Of a stretch of 22,645 nt of DNA, positions 524 through 3,398 are shown one piece after another (position 1 is the first letter of the stretch; every line of letters begins with the position of its first letter). The position numbers were made by a program, and so were the translations under genes. Source of the stretch: a virus; IMG/VR virus record IMGVR_UViG_3300006868_003369, positions 1 through 22,645 of that record, one strand, 5' to 3'. Under the pieces are notes generated by a model. It searched no databases, was not told where the DNA came from, and was given only the letters and a program-made list of their open reading frames with translations.

Positions 524-642
524 TAGTCATCATCCTCATCTTCGTATAAAGGACATGGTTCTTCAAAAAGATGTTCCATTCTAAGTTGTTTAATTCTTTC
601 TTTAAGTCCTTTGTAGAACTCCCTTTTTTCTTCTTCGTTCAT
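523..642 (-). CDS. Small acidic hypothetical protein (39 aa)
   Basis: A short gene read by eye: ATG 642 to TAA 523-525, 39 codons. The product is helical and charged (MNEEEKREFYKGLKERIKQL at the N-terminus) and ends in a run of acidic residues (YEDEDDD). It is joined at both ends by overlaps: ATGA with the 53-aa gene upstream and TAATG with the 69-aa gene downstream. These junctions match every other gene boundary nearby and are stronger support than length alone. No function can be assigned. Confidence 0.6.
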   Translation of the reverse strand: MNEEEKREFYKGLKERIKQLRMEHLFEEPCPLYEDEDDD

Positions 643-800
643 TTATGTTTTTTAGTGAACGGTTCCCAATGTTCCCAACCATACTTGTGAACTGCCCACA
701 TTCCTAGAACGGGAACAAATACCAACGCCAAACACATCGGTCCAAGGGTCCATGGATTATTTAGTGTCCAAGCAGCAAAATGACCAATTTTATGAATCAT
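639..800 (-). CDS. Small single-span membrane protein (53 aa)
   Basis: ATG 800 to TGA 639-641 gives 53 residues. The middle (about residues 20-39, GPMCLALVFVPVLGMWAV) is a clear hydrophobic segment. It is flanked by an N-terminal MIHKIGHFAAWTL stretch and a C-terminal aromatic and basic tail (HKYGWEHWEPFTKKHK). The start overlaps the zwf stop by ATGA (797-800) and the stop overlaps the next gene by ATGA, so translational coupling to zwf is likely. Probably an inner or thylakoid membrane peptide. Function unknown. Confidence 0.65.
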   Translation of the reverse strand: MIHKIGHFAAWTLNNPWTLGPMCLALVFVPVLGMWAVHKYGWEHWEPFTKKHK

Positions 801-2170
801 GCTGGATAATCCCAATCAGTTATTCTTCGCGTTTTGTAATCTGGTCCCCACGTACCAGGCATATAGATGTAAGGAGCAGTACGTATGGGGCAAGAATCCC
901 CAGTACAAAGTAAATCATTTACAATTCTCCAAGATTCTAACACTTCTTCAGAATGAACAAAGTGTGATTGATCACCATTAATTGCTTCATATAATAGTCT
1001 TTCATATCCATCAACACCCAACCAATCTGGATATCTGTGTGTCAAAGTAGCAGTTTCTACATCATTATTAAATCCAGGAGCTTTCATATCAATACGAATA
1101 TCAAAATGAGCATGTGGTTGTAATCGCATCACAATTCGATCGTTATATTCATGCCCCTCAAACAGTTGTTGCGGTGGTGATTTTAGTTTAATTACAACTT
1201 CAACACATCCATAAGGCATACATTTACCAGTCAAGATGCGAAAAGGAACTCCCTCCCAACGCCAGTTATCAACATATAAAGTACCAGCAGCAAAAGTAGG
1301 GGTATTACTGTTAGGATCAACACCCTCTTCAGATTTATAAGTTTCATATTGCCCAAGAATCATGTCCTTGCCCAAACGAGTAGCAGCAAGAACCTTCGTT
1401 TTTTCGCGACGAATTTCTTTTGCATCCATTCTGCAAGGTGCTTCCATAGCAATGAGTGCTAGAACTTGAAGGATATGATTTTGAAGCATATCTCTTACAG
1501 CGCCAGCAGTCTCATAATATTGCGATCGACCTTCACAACCGAATGTTTCAGTAGCAAAAATCTGAACTTCTTCTACATAGTTGCGGTTCCAAAGTGGTTC
1601 AAGGAGAATATTACTAAACCTTGTAGCAAGAATATTATTGACAGTATCTTTACCAAGATAATGATCAATGCGATAGACCTGCTTCTCCCGTAAATGTCTA
1701 CTAACCACAGACTGTAGATGATCAGCAGATTTATAATCACGTCCAAAGGGTTTTTCGATAACCACTCTGGACCTTTCTGGATCTTCAAGGAGTCCAGATT
1801 CTTTAAGATTGATGATAGAATTTTCATATCGTTCTGGTGGTACGGATAGAAAATAAGTATTATCTTGAAGATAATCTGGAAGGTGACGGAGAGTATCAAC
1901 ATTGTCCAGATCTACACATTGATAATCTAAATGATGTAAAAACTCTTCAGGATATTCACCTAAGGTTTCTTTCCACTGCTCGGATGTTGGTTCCCTTCTG
2001 GCAGATCCAGTAATTACAAAATTATTTGGAAGAAGATCTTTCTTCCATAATTCAAACAGTGCAGGAATTAATTTTCTCCTACAAAGATCTCCAGTTGCAC
2101 CGAAGATAACTATTCCTGAAGTCTCTGGGTTAGTGAGCGGTTCCATTTCCGTCATACTTGTCTGTTTCAT
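797..2170 (-). CDS. zwf: Glucose-6-phosphate 1-dehydrogenase
   Basis: Oxidises glucose-6-phosphate to 6-phosphogluconolactone with NADP+, the first step of the oxidative pentose phosphate pathway, in the cytosol. The N-terminal nucleotide-binding motif GATGDLCRRK is near residues 24-33 and the active-site motif RIDHYLGK near 167-174. The family C-terminal domain follows. The frame is open to ATG 2248, but that 26-residue extension overlaps a separate 42-aa gene with a far better ribosome binding site, so I start at ATG 2170 (457 aa). ATGs at 2155 and 2146 are also possible. It lies directly after gnd and ends in an ATGA overlap with a small membrane gene. zwf is a known cyanophage auxiliary metabolic gene, thought to supply NADPH and pentoses for nucleotide synthesis. 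Identity is secure; the exact start is not. Confidence 0.93.
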   Translation of the reverse strand: MKQTSMTEMEPLTNPETSGIVIFGATGDLCRRKLIPALFELWKKDLLPNNFVITGSARREPTSEQWKETLGEYPEEFLHHLDYQCVDLDNVDTLRHLPDYLQDNTYFLSVPPERYENSIINLKESGLLEDPERSRVVIEKPFGRDYKSADHLQSVVSRHLREKQVYRIDHYLGKDTVNNILATRFSNILLEPLWNRNYVEEVQIFATETFGCEGRSQYYETAGAVRDMLQNHILQVLALIAMEAPCRMDAKEIRREKTKVLAATRLGKDMILGQYETYKSEEGVDPNSNTPTFAAGTLYVDNWRWEGVPFRILTGKCMPYGCVEVVIKLKSPPQQLFEGHEYNDRIVMRLQPHAHFDIRIDMKAPGFNNDVETATLTHRYPDWLGVDGYERLLYEAINGDQSHFVHSEEVLESWRIVNDLLCTGDSCPIRTAPYIYMPGTWGPDYKTRRITDWDYPA

Positions 2171-2258
2171 AGTAGTTATTTTCACCTTTTCGTATCCCGA
2201 AATATATCGTGGATAGTACAAAGGGTATTGCGATCCATTTAAGAACATCAGCGAACAT
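2130..2258 (-). CDS. Small membrane peptide gene nested across the gnd-zwf junction (42 aa)
   Basis: A 42-codon frame, distinct from gnd and zwf, starts at ATG 2258 inside the last codons of gnd and stops at TAA 2130-2132 inside the zwf N-terminal region. GGAGG (2264-2268) lies five bases before the ATG, one of the best ribosome binding sites in the window. The product has an N-terminal hydrophobic helix (MFADVLKWIAIPFVLSTIYF) and a polar, Asn/Tyr/Asp-rich tail. It resembles the other single-span peptides between the metabolic genes here. If real, zwf is translationally coupled to it and starts further in. No known family recognised. Confidence 0.65.
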   Translation of the reverse strand: MFADVLKWIAIPFVLSTIYFGIRKGENNYYETDKYDGNGTAH

Positions 2259-3294
2259 CGTGACCTCCAAACATTGCCCGCATTCCATTCAGAACCTTGG
2301 CTGCGAAAGCACCAAGACGGCGCGACTCAAAACGTGCCCACAACGCACTGCTGATGACAGGAGCGGGTACGCCAAGATCCACAGCAGCGTGAACCGTCCA
2401 ACGACCCTCACCACTGTCTGATACTCCCCCATCGAACTTGCTAAGCTCTCGATCGCCGCGTAGTACAGTAGCGGTAAGATCGAGTAACCAAGAACCAACC
2501 ACACTACCACGACGCCATAACTCAGCCACTTCAGCAACGTCAATATCGTATTGATAATCTGCTGGATTTTCCATTGGAGCAACCTCAGCATCACCCTCCT
2601 TAACGTATGCCGACCCAGCATTAGCTTCATGCAGGATATTAAATCCTTCTGCATATGCTTGCATGATTCCATACTCAACTCCATTGTGAACCATCTTTAC
2701 AAAGTGACCTGCTCCAGCTGGTCCACAATGTAACCAACCATGTTCGGCACTTGTTTCATGAGAGAGGGGGTCTGTACGAGAGGCAGATCCGATACCTGGG
2801 GCGAGTGCCCTAAAGATGGGAGAGCAGACGGATACTGCAGTATTTGTACCACCAACCATAAGACAGTATCCACGCTCCAGACCGTAAACACCACCACTAG
2901 TACCACAGTCAAGATATTGGATGCCAAGTTTAGCAAGCCTTTCTGCCCTGCGTCTAGAGTCTTTAAAATTGGAATTGCCATGATCAATAATAATATCGCC
3001 TTCCACACAAAATTGTAGTAGCTCATTCAGTGTATCCTCTACAGTTTCTGCTGGTACAACCATCATAAAAATACCAGGATTTTTAGCAGGATCACCAAAA
3101 ACTCCTCTTCCGCTATGAACTACTTGAACAAGGCTTTCCAAAGAAGTGGTACATCCACTAATATAACCCTTCTCATATTGCTCTTCAGCTTTTTTATAGT
3201 TGTTACGATATCCATGAACTTCGATACCTGCTTTGATCATACGACGAGACATACCCTCGCCCATTCTTCCTAGACCGATTAAACCTACCTTCAT
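2248..3294 (-). CDS. gnd: 6-phosphogluconate dehydrogenase, decarboxylating
   Basis: Converts 6-phosphogluconate to ribulose-5-phosphate and CO2 with reduction of NAD(P)+. The N-terminal Rossmann fold has GLGRMG at residues 7-12. A substrate-binding GTSGG follows near residue 130, and the catalytic region HFVKMVHNGVEYG near 197-209 carries the expected Lys and Glu. At 348 aa it is the short form of the family rather than the roughly 470-aa form. After the second beta strand it reads GYRNN, so cofactor preference cannot be read confidently. It follows PTOX and a 27-aa peptide and precedes zwf, so two of the three oxidative pentose phosphate enzymes sit together; no phosphogluconolactonase is seen. 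The 3' third is markedly GC-rich against its surroundings, suggesting mosaic or recent origin. The start has AGAGG upstream. Confidence 0.95.
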   Translation of the reverse strand: MKVGLIGLGRMGEGMSRRMIKAGIEVHGYRNNYKKAEEQYEKGYISGCTTSLESLVQVVHSGRGVFGDPAKNPGIFMMVVPAETVEDTLNELLQFCVEGDIIIDHGNSNFKDSRRRAERLAKLGIQYLDCGTSGGVYGLERGYCLMVGGTNTAVSVCSPIFRALAPGIGSASRTDPLSHETSAEHGWLHCGPAGAGHFVKMVHNGVEYGIMQAYAEGFNILHEANAGSAYVKEGDAEVAPMENPADYQYDIDVAEVAELWRRGSVVGSWLLDLTATVLRGDRELSKFDGGVSDSGEGRWTVHAAVDLGVPAPVISSALWARFESRRLGAFAAKVLNGMRAMFGGHDVR

Positions 3295-3314
3295 CCTTTA
3301 ACCTCTTTTAAAAA

Positions 3315-3398
3315 TTAACTTCGGTATCTACCTGGCCATGTTAATTGCATTCCAGCAATTAACAATGAAATGAATGCAAATACAAACAATAGACTCAT
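3315..3398 (-). CDS. Very small membrane peptide between PTOX and gnd (27 aa)
   Basis: ATG 3398 to TAA 3315-3317 encodes 27 residues, nearly all one hydrophobic helix (MSLLFVFAFISLLIAGMQL) with a short TWPGRYRS tail. The ribosome binding site is very strong: GAGGAGG ends seven bases before the ATG. The start overlaps the PTOX stop by ATGA (3395-3398), suggesting coupled translation. Size and topology are like the one-helix subunits of photosynthetic membrane complexes (Psb and Pet peptides), but I cannot match it to a named one. A subunit or partner acting with PTOX in the membrane is an inference from position only. Confidence 0.65.
   Translation of the reverse strand: MSLLFVFAFISLLIAGMQLTWPGRYRS

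Follow-up and report, generated by a model that had tools for sequence, protein, structure and literature searches.

A 42-codon cyanophage gene overlapping gnd and zwf encodes an NdhP homologue

The window (the whole stretch analysed, 22,645 nucleotides of the IMG/VR virus record IMGVR_UViG_3300006868_003369) carries an alternative-oxidase-family gene, genes for two 2Fe-2S ferredoxins and for transaldolase, gnd and zwf. The first of these is probably PTOX, as judged from the cyanophage context. At the gnd-zwf junction, a 42-codon frame on the minus strand runs from ATG 2258 to the TAA at 2132-2130 and is translated as MFADVLKWIAIPFVLSTIYFGIRKGENNYYETDKYDGNGTAH. Its 5′ end shares 11 bases with the 3′ end of gnd, whose TGA stop codon occupies positions 2250-2248, and it lies one frame apart from the zwf ORF (Table 1). 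An earlier note on this DNA had placed a GGAGG (2268-2264) five bases before ATG 2258 and had described a peptide overlapping both the gnd end and the supposed Zwf N-terminus; both descriptions are correct. A mechanical ORF list gave a 52-aa version starting at ATG 2288. The start at 2258 is preferred because the homologues begin mostly at codon 1 of the 42-aa frame, or one to three codons earlier, and because the GGAGG fits 2258. A hydrophobic stretch is seen in the product sequence, and the structure model, which is uninformative on binding, predicts one helix only (residues 2 to 28), followed by a tail of low confidence.

Table 1. Features of the gnd-zwf junction and its surroundings in the window.
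Feature	Position	Strand	Evidence
gnd (6-phosphogluconate dehydrogenase), end overlapping ndhP by 11 bases	2248..3294	-	ORF list, PHROG, Pfam
GGAGG, putative ribosome-binding site of ndhP within the gnd coding end	2264..2268	-	sequence; duplex energy -10.5 kcal/mol
ndhP, 42-aa protein, predicted single helix	2130..2258 (stop codon included)	-	conservation, PDB profile matches, pN/pS
False zwf N-terminal extension, an out-of-frame reading of ndhP	2171..2248	-	pN/pS, stops; matches phrog_593
AAAGGTGAAAAT in ndhP codons 24-27, probable ribosome-binding site for the following gene	2178..2189	-	third positions of codons 25-27 near fixed
zwf (glucose-6-phosphate dehydrogenase), start ATG 2170, or 2155 or 2146	797..2170	-	Pfam G6PD_N, G6PD_C
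phrog_1184 gene after zwf, downstream edge of the swapped gene	639..815	-	PHROG match

A tblastn search with the 42 aa gave matches in 396 phage records, nearly all from cyanophages, and 389 of these covered at least 80% of the peptide length. A Zwf match was obtained in only 92 phage records, and about 300 records contain the peptide without a Zwf match. The difference between 92 and 396 records shows that the peptide is independent of zwf. Part of the cyanophage terminase, found with at least 60% identity in 473 records, served as the denominator; among records named Synechococcus phage, 331 had the peptide and 377 the terminase, and among those named cyanophage the numbers were 46 and 61. 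These counts, which include many near-identical isolates and were compared as totals and not record by record, suggest that roughly five-sixths of T4-like cyanophage records carry the gene. Comparison of the junction in relatives, which the earlier note had proposed as a check, showed that the 42-aa frame is kept in 62 non-redundant junctions as well as in the 396 records. A chance ORF is ruled out by this conservation. In PHROGs, the peptide aligns over its full length (E 2e-26) with phrog_2173, a family listed as of unknown function, from which it does not differ.

The nature of the product was revealed by searching PDB with a profile built from 17 family members. Two strong matches were obtained, 6khi_P (E 9e-10) and 6hum_P (E 3e-8), and both are NdhP of the T. 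elongatus NDH-1L complex; no other convincing family was found in this search. A profile made from metagenomic gnd/zwf-type homologues alone recovered the same two chains (E 9e-8 and 2e-6, respectively). Since the peptide had no match in Pfam or NCBIfam, the identification is taken from the PDB profile search. Furthermore, of 151 picocyanobacterial genomes reached through NdhI, 131 have an NdhP-like gene by the family profile, one in each except for two genomes with two, and the window peptide is 51% identical over 41 residues to NdhP of Prochlorococcus MIT 0701. Like cyanobacterial NdhP (chain P of 6khi, 6hum and 6nby; Prochlorococcus and Synechococcus), which is about 40 to 45 aa long with a single N-terminal helix, the phage protein has 42 aa, one predicted N-terminal helix and an FG turn. 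Its tail conforms to YY/FY-x-S/T-x-x-Y-x-G-N/D-G-x-A-H, and host and phage copies share the YY-x-S/T-D/E-x-Y-x-G-N/D-G tail and the final AH. They differ in that phage copies mostly carry an insertion of three residues, usually ENN, ahead of the YY and mostly lack the HDVQR-type end that is found in Prochlorococcus copies. By homology, the product of the 42-codon frame is NdhP and not a nameless membrane peptide.

Selection on the two overlapping frames was compared in the 62 junctions, 55 of which have zwf as the next gene. Diversity at codon positions 1, 2 and 3 of the peptide frame was 0.24, 0.12 and 0.43 (codons 5-42, 62 junctions), and the pN/pS ratio of this frame was 0.31 (codons 5-42, 55 zwf-linked junctions). 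Over the region of the supposed Zwf extension (peptide codons 5-28), pN/pS was 0.41 in the peptide frame versus 1.00 in the zwf frame, while in the tail (codons 29-42) it fell to 0.17, indicating strong constraint; these are uncorrected pairwise ratios from related sequences and are meant for contrasting the frames, not as absolute values. Y29, Y30, Y35, G37, N38, G39 and H42 are invariant across the 62 junctions. Together with the occurrence in 396 phage records, this purifying selection establishes the 42-aa peptide as a real gene, as had been proposed. The suppression of synonymous sites that the earlier note had expected was found at five codons, while third-position diversity at the other conserved ndhP residues does not fall outside what conserved zwf sites show for the same residue. 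The exceptions are codons 25-27 (GGTGAAAAT) and glycines 37 and 39 (GGA), all below every same-residue zwf site (6 to 19 sites each). The low diversity at the two glycine codons fits overprinted glutamates that would lie near the N-terminus of the next protein.

The longest zwf reading begins at ATG 2248 and adds 26 codons to the one from ATG 2170. Among the 55 zwf-linked junctions, the equivalent ATG is present in 34 and absent in 21, and in 11 the extension frame is interrupted by a stop ahead of the later starts. When zwf is not preceded by the peptide gene, its product starts with MSRLVIFGATGDL or MELTKGIVIFGATGDL, a few residues before IVIFGATGDL. The start at 2248 is rejected because the extension is unconstrained, because stops occur or the ATG is missing in relatives, and because Zwf N-termini elsewhere are short. 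The extension is thus a shadow of the peptide frame, as the earlier note had supposed. Its further claim that the peptide resets the zwf start holds for the rejection of 2248, but the exact start stays between two candidates. ATG 2170 is preceded by a Shine-Dalgarno-like site (-6.9 kcal/mol); it is kept in 19 of the 55 junctions, and in all 19 the duplex energy is below -4. The most widely kept start (51/55) is an ATG 26 or 23 bases before the peptide end, at the 2155/2152 position, and no Shine-Dalgarno-like site was found by duplex energy for ATG 2155.

In most of the zwf-less phages examined, GGTGAAAAT or GGTGAGAAT precedes an overlapping gene of the phrog_593 family. The conserved, Shine-Dalgarno-like GGTGAAAAT is located at the phage-specific insertion, 5′ of the overlapping next gene, and codons 25-27 of ndhP are likely the ribosome-binding site of that gene. 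Downstream of ndhP lies zwf in the window versus the phrog_593 gene in Syn1, followed in both by a phrog_1184 gene; zwf and the phrog_593 gene appear to replace each other because the phrog_1184 gene is shared beyond both. Whichever gene follows, be it zwf as here or the phrog_593 gene as in many relatives, it would thus start in the +1 frame within the 3′ part of ndhP, where its probable ribosome-binding site also lies.

The same shadow bears on an earlier description. In Sullivan et al. 2010 (PMC3037559), T4-GC1021 is listed with Zwf and degraded zwf remnants are described; the sizes of 276 and 303 bp in its table match the ORFs of Syn33 and Syn1, respectively. The sole significant match of the Syn1 T4-GC1021 ORF to the extended Zwf covers residues 8-36, which correspond to the ndhP shadow, and the remainder has no detectable match to Zwf (E 0.17, Syn1 only). 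The 100-aa ORF annotated at 2008-2310 of L003 (T4-GC1021, phrog_593) therefore consists of the ndhP shadow and a separate gene of about 60 residues: the first ~35 residues of phrog_593/T4-GC1021 are the same out-of-frame reading of ndhP as the zwf extension, and beyond these lies a small gene of its own, for which no Zwf match was detected in Syn1. The Zwf similarity of T4-GC1021 in Syn1 is due to the shared shadow, and as it is confined to the shadow, we reject T4-GC1021 as a degraded zwf on the Syn1 comparison. By this reading of the sequences, phrog_593 is a family shaped by mis-called starts. A gene caller that favours the longest ORF will miss ndhP and give the next gene a spurious N-terminus. 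The peptide is indeed often missed, as the earlier note had anticipated, but the loss is not general, for it is annotated as a hypothetical protein in the S-TIM5, ACG-2014f, ACG-2014a, S-RIM50 and S-MbCM6 records. The shadow also offers a simpler explanation of "degraded zwf" in zwf-less phages; deposited zwf start sites could be corrected, and phrog_2173 gains a likely function.

In a tree of 175 short sequences, 138 phage copies group together beside the hosts, with no host inside (support 0.89); the alignment has too few sites to place the origin of the phage clade, and the sample for the tree and the insertion is biased by collection to zwf-linked contigs. The three-residue insertion is present in most phage copies, a smaller group has one residue, and none of the host copies examined has it. 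The insertion is not always paired with the overlap, as relatives with the shorter loop overlap too and L085 has the insertion without an overlap, its Zwf starting past the peptide stop as MEDLINESKRIVIFGATGDL. The copy of AG-345-E02 nests among host NdhP, which suggests a separate acquisition. There, psaJ (Pfam E 5e-16) comes after ndhP, and so does an ndhI gene whose product shares about 80-84% identity with the host protein. In relatives, petE is often close to ndhP, and upstream there often lies gnd, PTOX or a ferredoxin gene.

Cyanophages are known to carry psbA, petE, PTOX and pentose phosphate genes, and cyanobacterial NdhP is a single-helix subunit at the distal end of NDH-1L formed by NdhD1/NdhF1. 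Host NdhP is needed for NDH-1L assembly (PMC4131877). We estimate at about 80% the probability that the frame at 2258-2130 (minus strand) is a phage ndhP whose product enters or stabilises host NDH-1L and sustains electron flow. The protein, presumably expressed during infection and predicted to span the membrane once, would enter NDH-1L, or keep it stable, once host synthesis stops. An intact complex would maintain electron flow from ferredoxin to plastoquinone and the ATP supply during infection, and the adjoining gnd and zwf would provide NADPH alongside. Because the three-residue insertion is absent from the hosts examined, assembly of the phage protein into host NDH-1L is not assured. NdhP with the insertion could instead join NDH-1L as a decoy or modulator that weakens or retunes the complex and diverts electrons from cyclic flow. 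The phage clade is distinct from the hosts and the insertion is phage-specific, as this would predict, and the strong constraint on the tail is expected of a binding surface in either role; we nevertheless consider it unlikely, because the host-conserved residues (FG, YY, the G-N/D-G tail and the final AH) are kept and because the neighbouring genes support electron flow, with no pointer specific to inhibition. It is more improbable still that the homologue has been repurposed to act elsewhere, for example in another membrane complex: a short helix with a tail can take new roles, and the metaG-MbCM1, ACG-2014f and ACG-2014d copies lie away from the petE-gnd region, but the NdhP-defining tail motif is intact throughout and photosynthetic electron-transport genes are recurrent neighbours. 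The standard annotation, with a true zwf start at 2248 and an accidental 42-codon frame, is scarcely credible, for although the extension frame is open in the window and is covered by many of the deposited zwf annotations, such a start contradicts the neutral pN/pS ratio, the stops and missing ATGs, the ~300 records without a Zwf match and the short Zwf N-termini elsewhere.

Incorporation of the phage NdhP into NDH-1L thus stays our preferred reading. A wider and tentative proposal, to which we give somewhat poorer than even odds, is that most T4-like cyanophages have their own NdhP lineage, in which the insertion embeds the next ribosome-binding site and the tail serves as a translational landing pad for swapping cargo such as zwf, coupling the manipulation of NDH-1 electron flow to the expression of that cargo. 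Our literature search for cyanophage ribosome profiling found none.

Phage ndhP is of a kind already known: marine metagenomic data had suggested viral ndhP before (PMC3877843, citing Philosof et al. 2011; review PMC10452541). The metagenomic viral ndhP is phage-borne too, and the AG-345-E02 copy beside psaJ and ndhI looks to be of that type, in contrast to the gnd-zwf type, which forms a separate clade and, in the regions read, has no PSI genes nearby. In the literature apart from Philosof et al. 2011, we found no account of ndhP across isolates, of its own clade, of the insertion or of a gene hidden under zwf. With about five-sixths of T4-like cyanophage records carrying it, NDH-1 would be an ordinary target of phages and not a curiosity seen in a few metagenomic cassettes; annotations may greatly understate how often phages sustain cyclic electron flow in their hosts, and phage control of this flow could be tested with one 42-aa protein.

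Several minor observations were made in the neighbourhoods. The AG-345-E02 region (L008, 2983-4136), from a single-cell virus record without annotation, is an NDH-1/PSI cassette of ndhP, psaJ, an 82-aa phrog_961 protein, ndhI and a 32-aa hydrophobic-looking frame. In metaG-MbCM1 (L014, 1798-2207), ndhP lies between the gp24 region and a 2OG-Fe(II) oxygenase gene, away from petE and gnd, and has a long C-terminal extension (68 aa). Several zwf-less phages (L002 1528-1998, L005 1354-1830, L012 1353-1829) have near ndhP a short 6-phosphogluconate dehydrogenase ORF of about 157-159 aa, not a full-length gnd. In contigs L033, L035-L038, L040-L042 and L044, ndhP is replaced by a 58-aa protein (MSQFCFTDLSDQQRRLL...), zwf follows at an ATGA overlap, and Zwf begins with MSRLVIFGATGDL. 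Finally, the window contains at 3314-3397 (minus strand), between the PTOX-like gene and gnd, a 27-codon frame, MSLLFVFAFISLLIAGMQLTWPGRYRS, for which searches of PDB and Pfam gave no match; tblastn finds it in 219 records, many of them weak, and close relatives, often unannotated, are present in other cyanophages, for example in S-SSM5, S-SCSM1 and L033 (MTTFFIILFISLLVSGMQLTWPGRYRG).
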